64,000 nt of DNA from the NCBI RefSeq assembly GCF_029626155.1, contig NZ_JARUBL010000001.1, forward strand, positions 682,001-746,000. The letters are read 5' to 3'. This document shows, piece by piece, positions 27,519 to 42,753 of the stretch (position 1 is the first letter of the stretch; every line of letters begins with the position of its first letter). A model generated the notes under the pieces. It did no database searches and was not told the origin of the DNA. It saw nothing but the letters and a program-made list of their open reading frames with translations. The translations under genes and the position numbers were made by a program. This DNA is from Solwaraspora sp. WMMD1047. Its GTDB lineage: Bacteria > Actinomycetota > Actinomycetes > Mycobacteriales > Micromonosporaceae.

Positions 27519-27721
27519 GGCCGGCGCACCCGTCCCCCACCCAGGTCCGTAACCGCCTGATTCTGGCGGCCCGGTACATCGTCGCTGAGCACCGGCCGAC
27601 CGTCGACGGGAGCTGTCCGGTCTGCCGGTTCGCCGGATGCCAGGCGCTGCTGACCGCGCAGGCGTACCTGGACTCGGTCGGCGCCCCACCGGCCCGGGGG
27701 GCGGACATCCGCCTCAGGTGA
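27515..27721 (+). CDS. Small Cys-motif protein 2
   Basis: A 68-residue protein: [18 protein letters not shown], then [20 protein letters not shown]. The CPVC...C arrangement and the preceding AxHRPxVDG are shared with the protein just upstream. It starts at GTG 27515, overlapping the upstream stop (GTGA), so the two should be made in fixed ratio. A possible zinc- or redox-site protein; the evidence is only the Cys pattern. Confidence 0.6.
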
Positions 27722-27729
27722 TCGACGCA

Positions 27730-27758
27730 TTGACACGCCTGAAACGCGCTGTCAATAT
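27730..27758 (+). promoter_or_regulatory. Promoter of the GH9 cellulase gene
   Basis: TTGACA at 27730-27735, a 17-base spacer and CAATAT at 27753-27758. This is a near-consensus housekeeping promoter placing the start site at about 27765, just ahead of the CebR box. Confidence 0.65.
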
Positions 27759-27770
27759 CGCGTTAGCCCG

Positions 27771-27784
27771 TGGGAGCGCTTCCA
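27771..27784. promoter_or_regulatory. CebR operator
   Basis: TGGGAGCGCTTCCA differs at one position from the palindromic CebR (LacI-family) box TGGGAGCGCTCCCA, used in actinobacteria to repress cellulase genes until cellobiose is present. It lies just downstream of the promoter, 51 bases before the cellulase start. Confidence 0.88.
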
Positions 27785-27834
27785 TTCGCGCTGCCCGGCA
27801 CACCCGGCACGTGTCCTCCATTGAAAGGACTTCC

Positions 27835-30162
27835 GTGTTCCCACTACGCACCATGCTTCCGTTCCCACCAACCACGACACTCTCCCGGCGGGCGGTCCCG
27901 CTCGCCGTTGTGACCGCGGCGGCGCTGGCCGCCACGGTCGGCCTGACCGGCGGCGCCGCCCACGGGCAGGAGCCGGAAGCTCCGGAGCAGATCGTCAACG
28001 GCGGCTTCGACGACGGCCACGCCCCCTGGTGGGGCACCCCCAACCTGACCCTGGACTCCAGCAGCGGCCAGCTCTGCGCCGACGTGCCCGCCGGCACGGT
28101 GAACCCCTGGGACGCCATCATCGGGCAGGACAACATCCCGCTGGTCGCCGGCGAGACGTACGAGTTCCGGTTCTTCGGCAGCGCCAGCCCGGCCCGGGTC
28201 GGCAAGGCCCTGATCCAGCTTCCGGTCGACCCGTACACCCAGTACCTGGCCGCCAACCCGGAGCTGAGCGTCTCCGGCAACGACTACCGCTACACCTTCA
28301 CCTCCCCGGTGGACCTGCCCAACGCACAGGTCGCCTTCCAGATCGGCGGCAGCGCCACCGCCTGGACGATCTGCCTGGACAACGTCTCCCTGCGCGGCGG
28401 GGCCGAGCCCGAGCAGTACGTTCCCGACACCGGCCCGCGGGTCCGGGTCAACCAGGTCGGCTACCTGCCCAAGGGCCCGAAGAACGCCACCGTGGTCACC
28501 GAGGCCACCACCGCCCTGCCGTGGCAGCTCAAGGACCGCAACGGCAAGGTGGTACGCCACGGCCGGACCAAGCCGCGCGGGGTGGACGCCTCGTCCGGGC
28601 AGAACGTGCACACGGTCGAGTTCGGCTCGTACACCCGGTCCGGGACCGGCTACACGCTGGTCGCCGACGGCGAGACCAGCCGGCCGTTCGACATCGGATC
28701 GGACTTCTACGAGAAGCTCCGCACCGACGCGCTGAAGTTCTACTACACCCAGCGCAGTGGGGTGGAGATTCGCGACGACCTGCGCCCCGGCTACGGCCGC
28801 CCGGCCGGCCACGTCGGCGTCGCGCCGAACCAGGGCGACACCGAGGTACCGTGCCAGCCCGGCGTCTGCGACTACACCCTGGACGTCTCCGGCGGCTGGT
28901 ACGACGCCGGTGACCACGGCAAGTACGTCGTCAACGGCGGCATCTCGGTGCACCAGCTGATGAGCGAGTACGAGCGCTCCTGGCTGGCCCGCACCGGCGA
29001 GCCCTGGAAGCTGTGGGACCGGACCCTGAACCTGCCGGAGAGCGGCAACAAGGTCCCGGACATCCTCGACGAGGCCCGCTGGCAGCAGGAGTTCATGCTC
29101 AAGATGCAGGTGCCGGCCGGCGAGGAGCTGGCCGGAATGGCCCACCACAAGATCCACGACGAGTCGTGGACCGGGCTGCCGCTGCTGCCGCACCTGGACG
29201 ACAAGCGGCGCGAGCTGCACCCGCCGTCCACCGCCGCCACCCTGAACCTGGCCGCCACGGCCGCCCAGGCGGCACGGGTCTACCGGCCGTACGACCGGCA
29301 CTTCGCCGCCCGCAACCTGGCGGCGGCGAAGCGGGCCTGGGCCGCCGCGAAGGCCAACCCGGAGATCTACGCCAGCCCGAACGACGCCAACGGCGGCGGG
29401 CCGTACGACGACAGCGACGTCACCGACGAGTTCTACTGGGCCGCCGTGGAGCTCTTCATCACCACCGGTGAGAAGGAGTTCCGCGACTTCCTGCTGGCCT
29501 CGCCGCACCACACCGGCGACATCTTCACCGCCGGCGGCATGTACTGGGGCGGCACCGCGGCGCTCGGCCGGCTCGCGCTGGCCACCCTGCCGAACAAGCT
29601 GCCCCGCCACGAACGCGACAAGGTACGGGCATCGGTCGTCAAGGGCGCCGACGGGTATCTGGCGACGCTGAAGGCGCACCCGTACGGCATCCCGTACGCG
29701 CCGGCCAACAACCAGTTCGACTGGGGCTCCAACAGCGGGATCATCAACAACGCCATCGTGATCGCCACCGCCTTCGACATCACCGGCAAGGACAAGTACC
29801 GCGACGGTGTCCTGGAGACGATGGACTACATCTTCGGCCGCAACGCCCTCAACCAGTCCTACGTGACCGGCTACGGCGAGGTGGCGTCGAAGAACCAGCA
29901 CAGCCGCTGGTACGCCCGGCAGCTCAATCCGGACCTGCCCAACCCGCCGGTCGGCACGCTCGCGGGCGGGCCGAACTCGGCGATCCAGGACCCGGTGGCC
30001 CAGCAGAAGCTGCAGGGCTGCGTGGCGCAGTTCTGCTACATCGACGACATCGAGTCGTGGGCGACGAACGAGCTGACCATCAACTGGAACGCTCCGCTCT
30101 CCTGGATCGCGGCGTTCATCGCCGACCAGGACAACGGCGACGCCCGGGGTCGCCTCTTCTGA
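27835..30162 (+). CDS. Secreted GH9 endoglucanase with CBM4/9 and Ig-like domains
   Basis: A 775-residue exported cellulase. Signal peptide at about residues 1-45 ([21 protein letters not shown]), CBM4/9 at about 48-197 ([14 protein letters not shown] to CLDNVSL), CelD-type Ig-like domain at about 200-290 ([18 protein letters not shown]), GH9 catalytic barrel at about 300-765. Catalytic region: [13 protein letters not shown] with the two acidic residues near 352-358, [12 protein letters not shown], and acid Glu in the [16 protein letters not shown] segment (about 745). GTG 27835 has GAAAGGA upstream. It acts outside the cell on cellulose; regulated by CebR through the operator upstream. Confidence 0.92.
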
Positions 30163-33051: not shown

Positions 33052-33187
33052 CCGGCCCGGCCCGGGCCGCGGGCATCTTGTGCGGTGCCGGCCGCTGGTA
33101 CAGGATCAGCGGGTTGACCGCGACGGCGCCTGCCGGCAGCAGCCCGGCGCCGAGCTGGGTGGGGGCCCGACGTCAGGGAGGATCGGT

Positions 33188-34410
33188 ATGACCGGCTCCT
33201 CGGTGGCGCCGCTACCGGCGTACTCGCACGGTGGCCTGGGGCGACACCCCAACCTGCCGCAGGGCGAGCGGCTGCGGGTCCTGCTGGTCGAGGACGACGA
33301 GGGGGACGCCTTCCTCGTCGGTGAGCTGCTCGCCGAGACCGACGCCGCGATCGACCTGGCGGTGGCGACCAGCCTCAACCAGGCCCGGACCCGGTTCGCC
33401 GGGGTGGACTGCGTACTGCTGGATCTGGGGTTGCCCGACGCGCAGGGGCTCGACGGGCTGCGCCAGGTGCTGGCCGCGGCCAGCGGGGCGGCCGTCTGTG
33501 TACTCACCGGCCGACAGGACGAGCACCTCGGCATCGCCGCGGTCGCGGAGGGCGCCCAGGACTACCTGGTCAAGGGCCAGGTCGACGGCGTGCTGCTGGC
33601 CCGGGCGCTGCGCTACGCGGTGGAGCGCAAGCGGGCCGACGAGAACGCCCGCCGGCTGCGCGAGGTGGAGCTGCGCCAGGCCGAGTCGGCCCGGCTGGAG
33701 CGGGGGCTGCTGCCGAAGCCGCTGATGGACACCGACCAGGTGCAGGTGCACCCGTTCTACCGGCCCGGCCGGCACGCCGCGCTGATCGGCGGCGACTTCT
33801 ACGACGTGGTGCAGACCGCGCCCGGCCGGGTGGACCTGATCGTCGGGGACGTCTGCGGGCACGGCGTGGACGAGGCCGCGCTCGGGGTCGAGCTGCGGGT
33901 CGCCTGGCGGGCCCTGGTGCTGGCCCGGGTGCCCGACAACGAGGTGCTCCCGGCGCTGGAGCAGGTGCTGATGAGCGAGCGCCGGCTACGGGAGATCTTC
34001 GCGACGGTGGCGAGCGTACGGCTCGACCTGGCCGCCAACCGGGCCACGGTACGCCTCGCCGGGCATCCGCCGCCGCTGTTGCTCTCGGCCGGTAGGGTCG
34101 CGCCGGTGGCGGCCCCGGGCGGGCTGCTGCTCGGGGTGCGCCCGCGCCCCCCGGCCGCCTTCGAGCTGGAGTTCGACACTGATGACTGGTCGCTACTGAT
34201 GTACACCGACGGGCTGATCGAGGGGCGGGTCGGCGACGGCGACGAGCGGCTCGACGTCTCCGGGCTGCGCGGCCTGGTCGCGGATCCGGGGAATCGGGGC
34301 GTACCGCTGCGTGACCTGCCCGGCTGGCTGGTCGGCCGGGCGGAGGAGGTCAACGGCGGGCCGCTCGCCGATGACGTGGCCATGCTGCTGGTCAGCCGGG
34401 GTGCCGGCCG

Positions 34411-34414
<4 letters not shown>
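33188..34414 (+). CDS. Receiver-SpoIIE phosphatase response regulator
   Basis: A 408-residue protein. The receiver domain (about residues 27-150) has VEDDEGDAF, phospho-acceptor Asp79 in LLDLGLPD, and Lys in YLVKGQ. A coiled linker rich in Arg/Glu leads to a SpoIIE/PP2C phosphatase (about 190-405) with GGDFYDV, VGDVCGHGVDE, YTDGLIEGR and LADDVAMLLVS. The phosphatase should be switched by phosphorylation of the receiver. ATG 33188 has GGGAGG upstream. It overlaps the kinase gene by ATGA, so it is the likely output of that kinase. Targets (STAS proteins) are not nearby. Confidence 0.9.
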
Positions 34415-36011
<1,597 letters not shown>

Positions 36012-36015
<4 letters not shown>

Positions 36016-36466: not shown

Positions 36467-37330
36467 ATGATTGACGAGGTCGGGGCACTGATGCGGGAGG
36501 CGGCGGCCCGCGCCATCCTCCCCGCCTACCGACGGCTGGGCGCCGACGACGTGACCGAGAAGGCGCCCGGTGAGGTGGTGACGGTCGCCGACCGGCAGGC
36601 CGAGCGGATCCTCACCGACGGGCTGACCCGGCTGCTGCCCGACTCGCAGGTGGTCGGCGAGGAGGGGGTGGCCGACGACCCCGCCACCCTGGCCCGGCTC
36701 GACCTGCCCGGACCGGTCTGGCTCGTCGACCCGCTGGACGGCACCGCCAACTTCGCCTCCGGTCGGGAGCCGTTCGCGGTGATGGTGGCGCTGCGCCGGG
36801 ACGGGGTCACCGAGGCGAGCTGGATTCTCGACCCGATGGCCGACCGGCTGACCGTGGCCCGAGCCGGCGTGGGGGCGTACGCCGATGGGGTCGAGCTGCG
36901 GGCGCCGGCCGGCGCGCCGCCGGTGGCGGCGCTGCGCGGCGTGCTGCCGACCCGGTTCCTGCCGCCGCCGGTCCGGGCCGCCGTGCAGGCCCGTGCCGCG
37001 CGCCTCGGCGAGGTGCTCGCCGGCCACCACTGCGCCGGCCGGGAGTACCCCGACATCGTCGCCGGGATCCAGCACTTCGCGCTCTTCTGGCGCACCCTGC
37101 CCTGGGACCACGCACCCGGCGCGCTGCTGGTGGGCGAGACCGGCGGGGTGGCCCGCCGGCTCGACGGCAGCCCGTACCAGCCGGCTGACGGGCGGGCCGG
37201 GCTGCTGGTCGCGGCCAATGAGGAGATCTGGCACACCGTACGCGAAACGCTTTTCTCCGGAGTGGACCCGACGGCTCCGCCCGACGGCGTGGTCGGGGGC
37301 GACGGGCCGGCCCCCGATTCGGTAGGCTGA
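36467..37330 (+). CDS. Inositol monophosphatase family protein
   Basis: A 287-residue Mg-dependent phosphatase. The FIG/IMPase signature WLVDPLDGTANFASGREPF (WxVDPLDGTxNF) is at about residues 84-102, and the second motif WDHAPGALLVGETGGV is near residue 215. EEGVAD provides metal ligands. It would hydrolyse inositol phosphate or a related sugar phosphate. I start at ATG 36467; TTG 36461 overlaps the regulator stop and is possible. Placed at the end of the signalling operon, with no other inositol genes nearby; the link to the kinase system is unclear. Confidence 0.88.
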   Translation: MIDEVGALMREAAARAILPAYRRLGADDVTEKAPGEVVTVADRQAERILTDGLTRLLPDSQVVGEEGVADDPATLARLDLPGPVWLVDPLDGTANFASGREPFAVMVALRRDGVTEASWILDPMADRLTVARAGVGAYADGVELRAPAGAPPVAALRGVLPTRFLPPPVRAAVQARAARLGEVLAGHHCAGREYPDIVAGIQHFALFWRTLPWDHAPGALLVGETGGVARRLDGSPYQPADGRAGLLVAANEEIWHTVRETLFSGVDPTAPPDGVVGGDGPAPDSVG

Positions 37331-37472
37331 CCGGCGGTCCACGCCAGGGTGGCGTCCGAAGGGCGCCGGCGCGGGCTGCTGCCGAGAATGCGGTTGTCGC
37401 CGGAACGGGTACGGCGCGGGGGATCACGACGTTCGGCGTGGGGTCGGCGGCCGACAGAGGAGACGGCTTTAC

Positions 37473-38498
37473 GTGCGCAAGACGGGCTTCACCCGACAGC
37501 GGGCCCTGACGCTGGTCGTCGCGCTGGTCGCCGCGTTGGCGGCACCCGCGGCCGTACCGGTCAGCCCCGTCGCCGCCGCGCCGAGTTCCCCCGGCGACGA
37601 GGGCGGCAAGAGCCTGCGTGAGGTGTTCGAGGCGGCCTCGAAGGGCCACATCGAGGCCACGAACAAACTGGAGAAATCCAAGAAGCGCCAGTCCGACCTG
37701 GGGTTGCAGCTGGAACTCATCGAGGCCCGGGTGCAGAGCCTCAGCGCCGAGCTGGGCACGGTGGCCGCCGAGTCGTACCGGCTCGGCCGGCTCACCCCGA
37801 TGTCGATGCTGCTCAACAGCGCCTCCCCGGACGCGTTCCTGGAGCGGGCCGCCGGGCTGGACGTGCTCGCCCAGCGGGACGGCCGCAAGCTCCGGGAGCT
37901 GATCGAGACGCGGGACCAGGCCGACCGGGCCAAGGCCGCCATCGACAATGAGGTCAAGGAGCAGAAGAAGCAGCTCGCCGTCATCGCGAAGAAGAAGCAG
38001 GACGCCGAGCGGGCGCTGGCCACCGTCGGCGGCTCGCCGAGTGGTGGGTTCATCAACGCCAACTCGCCGCTGGCCAAGCCGGCGCCGCGCAACTCCGACG
38101 GTTCCTGGCCGAACGAGTCCTGCACCATCGACGACCCGACCACCGGCGGCTGCATCACCCCGCGGACGCTGCACGCGTACAACCAGGCCAGGGCGGCCGG
38201 TTTCAAGCGGCACACCTCCTGTCACCGCAGCGGCGGCGGCGGTGAGCATCCGAAGGGGCAGGCCTGCGACTTCTCCTCCGGGGCGGAGGGCTTCAAGAAC
38301 TCCCACGCCACCGGCGGCGACCGCACCTACGGCAACAACCTGGCCTCGTTCTACATCAAGAACGCCAACCGACTCGGTGTGCTGTACGTGATCTGGTACC
38401 GGCAGATCTGGATGCCCGGCACCGGCTGGCGGTCATACAGCGGCGGCAGCAGTCCGGCCGGGGCGCACACGAACCACGTTCATCTCTCCATGATCTAG
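37473..38498 (+). CDS. Secreted coiled-coil protein with C-terminal cell-wall-hydrolase-like domain
   Basis: A 341-residue exported protein. GTG 37473 has GAGGAGA upstream. Signal peptide at about 1-35 (RALTLVVALVAALAAPAAV), then coiled coil at about 45-190 (EATNKLEKSKKRQSDL to KEQKKQLAVIAKKKQDAERAL), as in NlpC/P60-associated and RipA-type proteins. The C-terminal domain (about 225-341) has CTIDDPTTGGC, TSCHRSGGGGEHPKGQACDF and THTNHVHLSM-like His, a pattern seen in peptidase/ARB_07466-like cell-wall proteins. The catalytic class is not certain. It probably acts on peptidoglycan outside the membrane. Confidence 0.75.
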   Translation: MRKTGFTRQRALTLVVALVAALAAPAAVPVSPVAAAPSSPGDEGGKSLREVFEAASKGHIEATNKLEKSKKRQSDLGLQLELIEARVQSLSAELGTVAAESYRLGRLTPMSMLLNSASPDAFLERAAGLDVLAQRDGRKLRELIETRDQADRAKAAIDNEVKEQKKQLAVIAKKKQDAERALATVGGSPSGGFINANSPLAKPAPRNSDGSWPNESCTIDDPTTGGCITPRTLHAYNQARAAGFKRHTSCHRSGGGGEHPKGQACDFSSGAEGFKNSHATGGDRTYGNNLASFYIKNANRLGVLYVIWYRQIWMPGTGWRSYSGGSSPAGAHTNHVHLSMI

Positions 38499-38521
38499 GC
38501 AGGTCCGGTCCGCCGGTTGCG

Positions 38522-38527
38522 TACCAT
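38522..38527 (+). promoter_or_regulatory. -10 box of a leaderless transcript
   Basis: TACCAT lies 7 bases before ATG 38535, and there is no SD, so the mRNA probably starts at the AUG. Confidence 0.45.
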
Positions 38528-38534
38528 TGCGGCG

Positions 38535-40106
38535 ATGGAATCTCCCGCACCCGACGTGACCGGCGGCCCACCGCCGACCGAGCCGACCGACGAGGCCGTC
38601 GTGGTGCCGCACGCACTGCCGAACGGGCTCGCCGCCGCGCTGGTCTTCCTGGCCAGCGGCGCGGTGTTGGTACTGGAGACCGCCTCGCTGCGGCTCGTCG
38701 GCCCGTACGTCGGGGTGACCCTGCAGGTGACCAGCTCGGTGATCGGGGTGGCGCTGGCCGCGATCGCCTACGGTGCGTGGTTCGGCGGCTGGATCGCCGA
38801 TCGACGTGACCCGCGTACCCTGCTGGCCCCGGCGCTGGTGCTGGCCGGTGTCACCACCGCCATCACGCTGCCGATCGTCCGGTACGCCGGTGAGGTGCTG
38901 CGCGGCGGGGCCGCCGCCGGCATCGTGCTGCTCACCGCGCTGGCGATCTTCCTGCCGGCCGCGCTGCTCGCCGCGGTCACCCCGCTGGTGGTGAAGCTGC
39001 AGCTCGCCGACCTGCGACGGACCGGGCAGGTGGTCGGCAAACTCTCCAGCATCGGCACCCTGGGCGCCATCACCGCCACCTTCGGCACCGGCTTCGTGCT
39101 GGTCGCCACCCTGCCCAGCAGCGTGATCATCGCCGGACTGGCGGTGCTGCTGGGCGGCACCGGGATCGCCCTCGGGGTCTACCTGCGCCGCCGCGACCAC
39201 ACGGCGGTGCCGGGCCGGCCGAAGGTGAAGGCCGCGGTCGCCGTGCTGGCGCTGGCCGGGGCCGCCCTCACCGTGGTCGCCCCGAACCCGTGCGACGTGG
39301 AGACCGAGTACCACTGCGCGTCGATCGTGACCGATCCCGACAACTCGACCGGTCGGACGCTGGTGCTCAACTCGGCCCGGCACTCCTACGTGGACCTCGC
39401 CGACCCGACCCACCTGGAGTTCGAGTACACCCAGTGGATCGGCGCGGTGGCCGACGTGATGGCACCGGCCGGCGAGCGGCTGGACGCCGTACACCTCGGT
39501 GGCGGCGGCTTCACCATGCCGCGCTACCTCACCGCGACCCGGCCCGGCACCGACAACCTGGTGTACGAGATCGACGGCCAACTTGTCGACCTGGGTCGCC
39601 GGGAGCTGGACGTCCGGCCCGGCCCGGACCTGCGACCGCAGATCGGCGACGCCCGGATGCTCATCGGCCGGTTGCCCGACGACCGGGCCGACCTGGTGGT
39701 CGGCGACGCGTTCGGCCACCTGGTGGTGCCCTGGCACCTGGCCACCCGTGAGATGGCCGCCGAGGTGCACCGGATCGTCCGGCCCACCGGCGTCTACGCC
39801 CAGAACGTGATCGACTATCCGCCGCTGCGGTTCATCCGCGCGGAGCTCGCCACGGTTGCCGCCGAGTTCGCCCACGTCGCGCTGATCGCGCCGCCCGACG
39901 GTCTGGCCGGCGAGCGGGGGGCGAACTTCGTGATCGTCGCCTCCGCGGCGCCGCTGCCGCTGGCCGCCCTGCGCGACCGGCTGGCCACCTCGGTCGACGC
40001 GCCGGTCACGCTGCTGTCCGGCACCGAGCTGGCCGAGTTCGTCGACGACGCCCTCGTGCTCACCGACGAGTACGCCCCGGTCGACCAGCTCCTCGCCACC
40101 GGCTGA
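38535..40106 (+). CDS. Membrane protein fused to a spermidine-synthase-like domain
   Basis: A 523-residue protein. The N-terminal half (about residues 25-245) has seven membrane helices (ALVFLASGAVLVLETASL, VGVALAAIAYGAWFGGWIAD). The C-terminal half (about 255-523) is a Rossmann methyltransferase-like fold of the spermidine synthase superfamily: VHLGGGGFTMPRYL, YEIDGQLVDLG and DLVVGDAFGHLVVPWHL. The putrescine-binding residues are not obvious, so polyamine synthesis is uncertain. Such fused proteins are common in actinobacteria. ATG 38535 is behind a -10 at 38522, so the mRNA is probably leaderless. Confidence 0.8.
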   Translation: MESPAPDVTGGPPPTEPTDEAVVVPHALPNGLAAALVFLASGAVLVLETASLRLVGPYVGVTLQVTSSVIGVALAAIAYGAWFGGWIADRRDPRTLLAPALVLAGVTTAITLPIVRYAGEVLRGGAAAGIVLLTALAIFLPAALLAAVTPLVVKLQLADLRRTGQVVGKLSSIGTLGAITATFGTGFVLVATLPSSVIIAGLAVLLGGTGIALGVYLRRRDHTAVPGRPKVKAAVAVLALAGAALTVVAPNPCDVETEYHCASIVTDPDNSTGRTLVLNSARHSYVDLADPTHLEFEYTQWIGAVADVMAPAGERLDAVHLGGGGFTMPRYLTATRPGTDNLVYEIDGQLVDLGRRELDVRPGPDLRPQIGDARMLIGRLPDDRADLVVGDAFGHLVVPWHLATREMAAEVHRIVRPTGVYAQNVIDYPPLRFIRAELATVAAEFAHVALIAPPDGLAGERGANFVIVASAAPLPLAALRDRLATSVDAPVTLLSGTELAEFVDDALVLTDEYAPVDQLLATG

Positions 40107-40179
40107 CCGGGGTTTCGTCTGCTGACCGATTTCGCCATTTCGGGTGTAGCCCGACCCGGGTTGGGCAAGTAACCGGGCC

Positions 40180-41988
40180 ATGGGTGGGGAGGCGACGGCC
40201 GGGCGGGCGCTGCCCGGGTCGGTGGACTCGGACGGTCCGCTCGGCGGCCGGTACCGGTTGATCGAACAGCTCGGTGCCGGTGGCATGTCGGTGGTCTGGC
40301 GCGGCTACGACGAGGTGCTCGGCCGGCAGGTGGCGGTGAAGGTCCTCGCGCCCCGGCTGGCCGGCGACCGGGTGTTCCGGCACCGGATCCGAATCGAGGC
40401 CCAGGCCGCCGCCCGGCTCTGCCACCCCAACATCACGAACGTGTACGACTACGGCGAGGCGTCGCTGGCCGGCAGCCCGGTGCCGTACGTGGTGATGGAG
40501 CTGGTCGACGGCGAATCCCTGGCGGCCCGACTGGCCCGGTCCGGGCGGTTGCCCTGGCGGCGGGCCGTGACGGTCGGTGCCGAGGTGGCCGCCGCGCTCG
40601 CCACCGCCCACGCGCGAGGGATCGTGCACCGGGACGTCCACCCGGGCAACGTGATGCTCACCGCGAACGGGGCGAAGGTCGTCGATTTCGGGATCTCGGC
40701 CCTGGTCGGGCAGCGCGAGGTAGGGCCGGACGGACAGCTGCTCGGCACCCCCGCCTATCTCGCGCCGGAGCGGCTCGACGGCGGCTCGGTCGCCGCGCCG
40801 GCCGACGTCTACGCGCTCGGCCTGCTGCTCTACCGCGCTCTGACCGGGCGGTATCCGTGGGCGGCGAAGACCACGACCGAGTTTCTCCGGGCCCACATGT
40901 TCACCGAGCCGGATGCGCTGCCGTCGATTCCCGGGTTGCCGGCCGAGGTGGTCGAGCTATGCGCCCGGTGCCTGGCCAAGGACCCGGCCCGCCGGCCCTC
41001 CAGCGCCGAGCTCGCCCGTGGCCTGGCCCACGCCGCCGCCCCCGGCCGGACCGGGCGGCCCGCCGTCGACCGGCCCCTCCCGTCCGCCGTCGACCGGCCC
41101 CTCCCGTCCGACGCCGATCACTACGCCGACGCCGGCACCGTGATCCTGCCGTGGTCGGTGGAGACCGACGCATTGTCGCTGTCGGTCCGCTCGACCGGTG
41201 GCGGCAGCCGGGCAGGCAGCCGGCGCAGCGGCGGTCACCCGGGCGGCCCGGCCCCGGCCGGTCGCGCCGGGCGGCTGCGCGCGACGGCCGGGCGGCTGCG
41301 CGCAACCGGGGAGCGGCGGCGCAGGGTCGAGGTGGCGGCGGTCGGCCTCGGGCTGGTCGCGCTCACCGGCGCGGTCTGGGCCGGCGTCAGCGCCGCCCCG
41401 GCGGACGGCACCGACGGGCTCACCGAGGTGACGGCCGGCGTCGGCTCACCGGCCGGCTGCCAGGTCGAGTACGCGCTGCGCCGGGACACCGGCAGCGACT
41501 TCGAGGCCGGGGTGACAGTCACCAACACCGGCCCCGACCCCGTTGCCGACTGGGCGTTGACGTTCGCGCTACCGGGTGACCAGACGGTGGCCCACGCCGC
41601 GGCCGATGCGGCCGGGGTCGGCTGGCGGCAGCAGGGCCGGAAGTTGACCATCGAGCCCGCCGACGGCGGTCCGACCGCGCTGGCCTCCGGTGCTGCGGCC
41701 ACCATCGCGCTGGCCGGGCAGTACCGTACGACGAACGCGCTGCCCACCGAGTTCCGGCTCGGCGGGCTGGCCTGCCAGGCGCGGGTGACCGGCGTACCGG
41801 GAATGGCCGCCGCCACGCCCGACGGCGCGGTGGCGGTGACGCGCTCGTCGGCGAAGGCGTCGGGCGCCGGCGCCCCGGCCGTCCGGCCGGAACGGGCCGG
41901 TCCGGCCGCACCGAAGGCGAAGGGTGAGGCCAAGCCGCCCAAGCCCGGCAAGCCACCGAAGCCCGGCAAGCCCGCCAAACACCGCTGA
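40180..41988 (+). CDS. Transmembrane Ser/Thr protein kinase with extracellular CBM2-like domain
   Basis: A 602-residue protein. The cytosolic PknB-type kinase spans about residues 23-285: G-loop LGAGGMSVVW, Lys54 in VAVKVL, catalytic loop HRDVHPGN at 150-157, DFG at 169-171, and APE in YLAPERL. The catalytic loop has His154 in place of the usual Lys (HRDxKPxN). A juxtamembrane Gly/Arg-rich region with a VDRPLPS repeat follows, then one helix (about 386-408). The extracellular domain (about 427-535) looks like a cellulose-binding CBM2 (TVTNTGPDPVADWALTFALPG). A Lys/Pro-rich tail ends it. An imperfect palindrome lies at 40149-40166. Confidence 0.85.
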   Translation: MGGEATAGRALPGSVDSDGPLGGRYRLIEQLGAGGMSVVWRGYDEVLGRQVAVKVLAPRLAGDRVFRHRIRIEAQAAARLCHPNITNVYDYGEASLAGSPVPYVVMELVDGESLAARLARSGRLPWRRAVTVGAEVAAALATAHARGIVHRDVHPGNVMLTANGAKVVDFGISALVGQREVGPDGQLLGTPAYLAPERLDGGSVAAPADVYALGLLLYRALTGRYPWAAKTTTEFLRAHMFTEPDALPSIPGLPAEVVELCARCLAKDPARRPSSAELARGLAHAAAPGRTGRPAVDRPLPSAVDRPLPSDADHYADAGTVILPWSVETDALSLSVRSTGGGSRAGSRRSGGHPGGPAPAGRAGRLRATAGRLRATGERRRRVEVAAVGLGLVALTGAVWAGVSAAPADGTDGLTEVTAGVGSPAGCQVEYALRRDTGSDFEAGVTVTNTGPDPVADWALTFALPGDQTVAHAAADAAGVGWRQQGRKLTIEPADGGPTALASGAAATIALAGQYRTTNALPTEFRLGGLACQARVTGVPGMAAATPDGAVAVTRSSAKASGAGAPAVRPERAGPAAPKAKGEAKPPKPGKPPKPGKPAKHR

Positions 41989-42000
41989 TGGGCGGGGCCG

Positions 42001-42753
42001 TCAGGTTTCGGTGGCGAACCGCTGCACCTGGTCGGTGGCACCGGCCACGATCAGGATGGCGTCGCCGGTCAGCACGGTCTCCGGGTCGGGGCGCAGGAAC
42101 TCGCCCGTCGGGCTCTTGATCCCGACCACCGTCACGTCGTACCGGTTCCTCATGGCGAACTGCCCGATGGTCTGGCCGGTCAGCTCGGCCGGCAGGCAGG
42201 TCTTCGCGATCGCGAACCCCTCGTCGAGTTCGATGAAGTCGAGCATCTTCGTGGTGATCAGGTGCGCCACCCGGTCACCCATCGCCGCCTCGGGATAGAT
42301 GACGTGATCGGCGCCGACCGAGGCCAGGATCTTCCCGTGCTTGACGCTTATCGCCTTCGCCCAGATCTCCTGCACCCCCACCTCGGTCAGGGTGAGTACG
42401 GTCAGCACGCTCGCCTCCAGGTCGGTGCCGATGCCGACCACGGCCCGGCCGAACTCGGCCAGCCCGAGTTGCTGCAGTGACTCGTTGTCGGTCGAGTCGG
42501 TCTGCACCACGTGGGTCAGCCGGTCGGCCCAGAACTGGACGGTGTGCGGGTCCTGGTCGATGCCGAGCACCTCGTGGCCGAGCCGCAGCAGCGACTCGGC
42601 CACCTGCCCCCCGAACCGGCCGAGCCCGATCACGGCGACGTTCTCGCCCGCGGTGGGGGCCCGGGACACCGGGCCGGGCTGCCGGGTGTTGCCGTCGAGT
42701 TGGGCCTGCGCCCGATTGCCGCTCGGCTCGCGTCTTCGTCGCTGGTCAGCCAA
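42001..42753 (-). CDS. ktrA: Potassium uptake regulatory subunit (KtrA/TrkA, RCK)
   Basis: A 250-residue cytosolic RCK protein that gates KtrB. NAD/ATP-binding motif VAVIGLGRFGGQVAES at about residues 38-53, the acidic end of strand 2 (IDQD), then a TrkA-C domain (about 170-250, SPTGEFLRPDPETVLTGD). A roughly 35-residue charged N-terminal extension (RRRREPSGNRAQAQL) precedes the fold. It starts at TTG 42753, inside the end of ktrB (8-base overlap), with GAGAGG upstream. Co-translated with the channel subunit. Confidence 0.9.
   Translation of the reverse strand: MADQRRRREPSGNRAQAQLDGNTRQPGPVSRAPTAGENVAVIGLGRFGGQVAESLLRLGHEVLGIDQDPHTVQFWADRLTHVVQTDSTDNESLQQLGLAEFGRAVVGIGTDLEASVLTVLTLTEVGVQEIWAKAISVKHGKILASVGADHVIYPEAAMGDRVAHLITTKMLDFIELDEGFAIAKTCLPAELTGQTIGQFAMRNRYDVTVVGIKSPTGEFLRPDPETVLTGDAILIVAGATDQVQRFATET

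Follow-up and report, generated by a model that had tools for sequence, protein, structure and literature searches.

A predicted transmembrane Ser/Thr kinase in a 64-kb stretch of DNA from Solwaraspora sp. WMMD1047 (the window, in all that follows) raises two questions: whether its outer domain, which resembles a cellulose-binding module of family 2 (CBM2), permits the kinase to sense plant or cell-surface polysaccharide directly, as the first-pass annotation had proposed, and whether a kinase with His in place of the usual Lys of the catalytic loop can be active. The gene and its parts are as follows.

40180..41988, + strand: 602-aa open reading frame with ATG start, encoding the transmembrane Ser/Thr protein kinase and its CBM2-fold ectodomain
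40252..41013, + strand: PknB/PknA-like kinase domain, residues 25-278 (Pfam Pkinase PF00069, 148.3 bits)
40627..40650, + strand: catalytic loop HRDVHPGN, residues 150-157
40639-40641, + strand: H154, at the usual Lys position of the catalytic loop
40684..40692, + strand: DFG, residues 169-171
41332..41388, + strand: single predicted membrane helix, residues 385-403 (hydropathy maximum)
41458..41775, + strand: CBM2-fold ectodomain, residues 427-532; Cys427, Cys532 and the core W458 kept, aromatic strip gone
41479..41493, + strand: R434-R-D436-T-G438, the segment aligned with the W17 loop of CBM2a
41797..41985, + strand: low-complexity C-terminal tail rich in A, P, K and G, residues 540-602; outside the cell, provided that the predicted helix is correct

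A PknB-like receptor kinase with a CBM2-type outer domain

When PDB sequences were searched with the kinase, PknA and PknB from M. tuberculosis were the top matches, and for the AF2 model of the kinase domain (pLDDT 89.6) the top Foldseek match was PknB (5u94, 41% identity). Hydrophobicity is highest at residues 385-403, between the kinase domain and the CBM2-like domain, and a basic juxtamembrane stretch is found between the kinase domain and this predicted helix. PknB likewise possesses one membrane helix and a sensor outside; the sensor of PknB consists of PASTA repeats, whereas the studied kinase has a CBM2-fold ectodomain. In the 602-aa open reading frame no PASTA domain was matched by Pfam, and with the model for PASTA kinases (NF033483) it reached 278 bits, below the cut-off of 450. 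By Pfam and NCBIfam the cytoplasmic part is a kinase domain and not an anti-sigma domain of the RsgI type.

A profile search of the ectodomain against CBM2, proposed in the first-pass annotation as a check, gave a match of 40.8 bits to Pfam CBM_2 (PF00553; cut-off 24) for residues 427-532, covering the whole profile (positions 1-101 of 101). In a six-frame search of the genome, which returned 69 CBM_2 matches, the ectodomain was recovered with 45 bits, again above the cut-off. Its predicted structure (pLDDT 90.6) had as closest fold the CBM2a 6qfs from C. fimi (Z 16.8, rmsd 1.7, 106 residues aligned, 36% identity). Profile score, predicted fold and conservation rule out a chance match, and the description as a Ser/Thr kinase with a CBM2-type outside domain, which implied one membrane helix, was borne out.

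The ectodomain keeps the fold but not the cellulose-binding strip

In CBM2a, residues W17, W54 and W72 are given as those that bind cellulose in the available text of PMC5935602. The studied ectodomain has the fold, the Cys pair and the core Trp in common with the C. fimi Cex CBM2a (1exg, 6qfs), but in an alignment to 1exg all three binding Trp stand opposite non-aromatic residues. For a wider comparison, a profile was built from 1exg and 62 ordinary CBM2 domains encoded in the same genome, and the CBM2 domains of 71 kinases were aligned to it. These 71 comprise the studied kinase, 15 further loci (alignment A1), locus L043, recovered when 14 other loci were checked with a looser motif, 28 of a set of 80 loci, and 26 loci obtained later; the other 52 of the 80 have a kinase open reading frame without a CBM2 match and hence lie outside the 71, and two rows with identical domains (L238 and L239) were both counted. 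Counts given for 70 kinases, 61 of which are without the loop Lys, do not include L043, and neither does the tree of 112 kinase domains described below.

The strip positions read T, A and G in the studied kinase (0/3 aromatic). No aromatic residue of the triad was found in 68 of the 71 kinase domains, the studied one counted in (67/70 before L043 was added), and the other three have one; among the ordinary domains the triad is complete in 57/62 and two aromatics are present in the remaining 5. As the columns of W54 and W72 are gapped in some kinase rows of the profile alignment, a count tolerant of shifts was added, in which any aromatic within the respective loop was accepted. For the W17 loop this gave 6/70 kinases versus 61/62 ordinary domains, for the W54 loop 2/70 versus 62/62, and for the W72 loop 1/70 versus 60/62, so that few kinases have displaced aromatics that could replace the strip. 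Three of the six W17-loop cases (L120, L124, L125) have a Trp, three positions N-terminal to that of W17. W482 is hardly a substitute for the strip either, as its column is aromatic in 16/70 kinases and in 14/62 ordinary domains, all 14 of which retain W54. Residues that keep the fold are conserved in the kinases: the first Cys in 70/70, the core Trp in 68/70, and the second Cys in 69/70. Of the three kinases that have one aromatic, L127 and L132 retain the equivalent of W54 and belong to a clade outside that of the studied kinase, which suggests a stepwise loss from an ordinary CBM2.

With the three binding aromatics absent, cellulose binding in the manner of CBM2a is unlikely for this ectodomain. 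The first-pass annotation had itself named a lack of carbohydrate-binding aromatic residues as evidence against its proposal, and this lack was found at all three strip positions, which leaves direct sensing of polysaccharide via a CBM2 site unsupported.

A polar motif typical of the kinase ectodomains

At the site of W17, the kinase relatives commonly carry a segment R434-x-D436-[ST]-G438 that is rare in ordinary CBM2 domains. D436 is present in 95% of the 61 kinases without the loop Lys versus 8% of the 62 ordinary domains, G438 in 93% versus 13%, R434 in 84% versus 0% and, further along, R487 in 75% versus 0%; position 437 is Ser or Thr in 55/70 kinases. Taken together, R434, D436, D457, R487, P493, L511, Y515, L521 and E524 occur in 66 to 95% of the 61 kinases and in 0 to 8% of the 62 ordinary domains. 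The polar residues typical of the kinases would fit a new surface, an interpretation weakened by the kinship of the rows, of which 26 out of 61 belong to a single genus (g4) and many of the rest to named Micromonospora. Compared across one set of 29 loci, the ectodomain had a mean column identity of 44% and the kinase domain one of 70%.

The catalytic loop and the competence of the kinase

As the first-pass annotation had read it, the loop HRDVHPGN is devoid of the usual Lys while Asp152, Asn157, Lys54 and DFG are kept. At the Lys position, 58 of the 71 kinases with CBM2 have Thr, 9 have Lys, 3 have Ser and one, the studied kinase, has His, so that the catalytic-loop His is one version of a change common to most relatives (62/71). 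The studied kinase has K54 (the beta-3 Lys), E73, D152 (the HRD Asp), N157 and the DFG motif (D169). In 70/70 kinases each, the patterns HRD....N, DFG and Y.[AS]PE were matched, the beta-3 pattern [VI]A[VI]K was matched in 69/70, and the glycine-loop pattern used in 59/70. In three relatives the Pro of the loop is lost as well, with HRD and Asn kept (HRDISSSN in L029, HRDVTAQN in L032, HRDVTANN in L043).

His was rejected as a frequent variant of this loop. A search for the motif HRDxHPxN in 354 genomes of the family gave 48 places in 41 genomes, some of which may be chance matches as the backward control pattern gave 10, and HRDVHPGN was read solely at the studied locus, whose genus is represented by one of the 354 genomes. 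Of the other 47 places, 39 read HRDFHPGN (14) or HRDLHP[ED]N (25), which by their motifs we take to be proteins like aminoglycoside phosphotransferases (APH) or other kinase-like proteins. The Thr form of the loop was found in 15/98 genomes of the class (backward control 0) and the Lys form in 96/98. The studied genome contains at least two further loops of the Thr type, HRDITPAN in L060 and HRDLTPGN at C1:2085934 within a Pkinase match. L060 (C1:6124423-6125187) is a kinase without the loop Lys that falls into a six-row tree clade in which CBM2 is absent.

In the tree of 112 kinase domains, obtained with the loop residue masked, the studied kinase is placed among rows with Thr and Ser with moderate support (SH-aLRT 82), the tree being a quick, midpoint-rooted one in which this place lies outside any starred set. 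It omits 9 of the 25 other kinase loci of the same genome, which gave no motif row, and includes one kinase twice (L051 and L062). The loop residue changed at least 8 times on this tree; as the neighbours of the studied kinase are already without the Lys, His154 would most simply be a further change. Over the loop region Pfam also reported APH with 29.5 bits (residues 134-171, above the cut-off) and ABC1 with 22.3 bits (just below it). Where the loop Lys would stand, the kinase-like families APH, ABC1/UbiB and Bud32 have His or Thr; the studied kinase, in contrast to these, is PknB-like over its whole length, and the HPGN in common would most simply be a convergence.

According to the available text of PMC12599244, pseudokinases are defined by loss of the beta-3 Lys, the HRD Asp or the DFG Asp; all three are present here and by this definition the studied protein is no pseudokinase. 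The ten key kinase residues in the available text of PMC1821047 do not include Lys168. With the beta-3 Lys, the HRD Asp, the Asn and DFG retained, the studied protein is probably active as a kinase despite lacking the loop Lys. Of the two options that the first-pass annotation had left side by side, the evidence favours a Lys that the subfamily can dispense with over an altered activity: 62/71 kinases have Thr, Ser or His in its place and keep the other catalytic residues. A further difference from PknB and PknA concerns the activation segment: the nine residues preceding GTPAY include neither Ser nor Thr, which makes a PknB-style activation by phosphorylation at this place doubtful. The same was observed in 30 of the 61 kinases without the loop Lys and in 29/47 Lys-type relatives without CBM2, so that it is a trait of the wider lineage.

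Gene neighbourhood and the nearby cellulase

Upstream of the kinase gene, the window contains the following features.

27637-30162, + strand: GH9 cellulase with CelD_N and CBM4_9, not CBM2
33080-36015, + strand: SpoIIE-type phosphatase with fused response regulator, and a CHASE3 histidine kinase overlapping it
37473..38498, + strand: putative secreted coiled-coil protein with His-rich C-terminal segment, upstream neighbour
38517..40106, + strand: fused MFS/spermidine synthase-like membrane protein, upstream neighbour (NCBIfam NF037959, 284 bits)

In 17 of 26 related loci the kinase is adjoined by relatives of the response regulator-SpoIIE protein, the CHASE3 histidine kinase, the secreted protein and the MFS/spermidine synthase-like protein. 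This four-gene block lies upstream on the same strand in 14 loci and downstream on the opposite strand in 3 (L119, L122, L126), and it was not found at the other 9. TrkA and TrkH come after the kinase in 11/26 loci. The secreted neighbour had no Pfam match, its C-terminal segment EHPKGQACDF ... HTNHVHLS included; it showed very weak similarity to RipC (E 0.0098), EnvC (E 0.095) and PDB 9flh (E 0.0042), and its product may possibly represent an undescribed family of wall hydrolases. A sigma-70 scan of positions 37300-42100 detected no promoter-like site, a result of little weight in an actinomycete.

The cellulase noted in the first-pass annotation is real, a GH9 enzyme with CBM4_9. A near-palindrome, TGGGAGCGCTTCCA, at 27771-27784 is one mismatch away from the CebR consensus. 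Three CebR-like sites with at most two mismatches occur in the window, a number reached in 4 of 100 shuffled sequences. As the near-palindrome lies inside the longest open reading frame of the cellulase, the enzyme may actually start further downstream. The cellulase and the conserved block are separated by an M28 peptidase gene. A further CBM2 domain was found neither in the 64-kb window nor in the regions flanking the 26 related loci, which were covered to 8 kb at most and in some cases over a shorter distance. With 69 CBM2 matches in the genome and none other nearby, the cellulase lends weak support to polysaccharide sensing. The surroundings of the kinase weakly indicate a connection with the envelope and not with the use of cellulose.

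Distribution in the Micromonosporaceae

A region matching the membrane helix plus CBM2 (E <= 1e-15) was found in 215/354 Micromonosporaceae genomes, belonging to 20 of 44 genera, and in 150/160 genomes of g4, the largest genus sampled. All 26 loci newly fetched from this search encode kinases, the check for a kinase being limited to fetched loci. Records with such a kinase come from Micromonospora, Verrucosispora, Plantactinospora, Actinoplanes, Paractinoplanes, Couchioplanes, Catellatospora, Dactylosporangium and a few more, and from one metagenome bin labelled Actinobacteria. In the studied genome two weak CBM2-like matches, L229 (C1:7870897-7871193) and L231 (C1:4763740-4764039), lie in open frames that are 294 and 233 aa long, respectively, and are possibly further non-enzyme uses of the CBM2 fold.

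Discussion

Bacterial transmembrane Hanks kinases are a known kind, and among the matches listed in a search of open-licence literature no paper describes one with a CBM2 ectodomain in its title or at the start of its abstract; in a survey of kinase architectures (PMC1262709) neither the word 'cellulose' nor 'carbohydrate' appears. Among the papers found, the closest parallel for a CBM fold in signalling is provided by the RsgI anti-sigma factors from C. thermocellum, described in the available text of PMC4711584 as membrane signalling proteins with CBM3 or CBM42 ectodomains. They differ from the studied protein in the CBM family and in the cytoplasmic part, which is a sigma-factor inhibitor in RsgI and a kinase here.

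For the studied protein, we would give an even chance to an envelope-sensing, single-pass PknB-like receptor kinase with a repurposed CBM2 fold, belonging to a family widespread in Micromonosporaceae. Its ectodomain would have originated from a secreted CBM2, would have lost cellulose binding early in the kinase family and would have gained the polar surface of R434-x-D436-[ST]-G438 and R487. The ectodomain may now bind, or be anchored by, a component of the envelope, either a wall glycan or a partner protein, with the secreted neighbour or the MFS/spermidine synthase-like neighbour as candidate partners. Dimerisation driven by the ligand would join two cytoplasmic kinase domains and switch them on, as proposed for PknB, and these would phosphorylate their partners without the loop Lys, with His154 either replacing Thr or Lys near the gamma-phosphate or merely tolerated. 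A more specific version can be offered only tentatively, namely that these proteins form a kinase class whose sensor is a CBM module stripped of its sugar strip and provided with a new polar R-x-D-[ST]-G site for a cell-wall or protein ligand, which would make them the Micromonosporaceae counterpart of PASTA kinases, without a catalytic-loop Lys.

If the CBM2-like domain bound cellulose, xylan or chitin and the kinase signalled its presence, one would understand why both profile and fold are those of CBM2, in a genome so rich in CBM2 and with a GH9 cellulase 10 kb away; CBM3-type modules of biomass-sensing RsgI proteins are among the weaker structural neighbours of the ectodomain, and the CBM-bearing anti-sigma factors of Clostridium thermocellum, thought to act in this way, provide a precedent. 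Nevertheless, direct sensing of polysaccharide from plants or the cell surface appears quite improbable, since the strip aromatics are all absent here and none is found in 68/71 kinase domains, no other CBM2 occurs in the window or the flanks of the 26 loci, and the M28 peptidase gene separates the cellulase from the conserved block. Loss of binding residues with retention of those that keep the fold, together with a conservation lower than that of the kinase domain (44% vs 70%), would also be expected of a spacer or stability module that serves only to keep the C terminus outside the cell or to bring about dimerisation, without a ligand. The residues typical of the kinases, such as D436 (95% of 61) and G438 (93%), exceed what a spacer needs, although kinship may explain part of their conservation, and we regard such a module as rather unlikely.

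Turning to the cytoplasmic side, absence of the loop Lys in 62/71 kinases and of the loop Pro in three relatives might be taken as marks of a receptor that is catalytically weakened or a pseudokinase, a scaffold left after the Lys was lost. The three residues that define pseudokinases in the available text of PMC12599244 are present, however, Lys168 is outside the ten key residues in that of PMC1821047, and the Thr form of the loop is found elsewhere in the class (15/98 genomes), all of which makes this scaffold improbable.

The ectodomain probably senses something other than plant polysaccharide, as judged from its residues, and a 'CBM' annotation on a signalling protein should be read with caution before polysaccharide sensing is concluded from it. 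If the envelope-sensing reading is true, a carbohydrate-binding fold can become a signalling ectodomain, and the residue found at the loop position would provide a natural Lys/Thr/Ser/His series useful for probing the role of that Lys. It would also mean that nearly all members of the largest genus sampled have such a receptor kinase, the helix-plus-CBM2 region being matched in 150 of the 160 genomes of g4.
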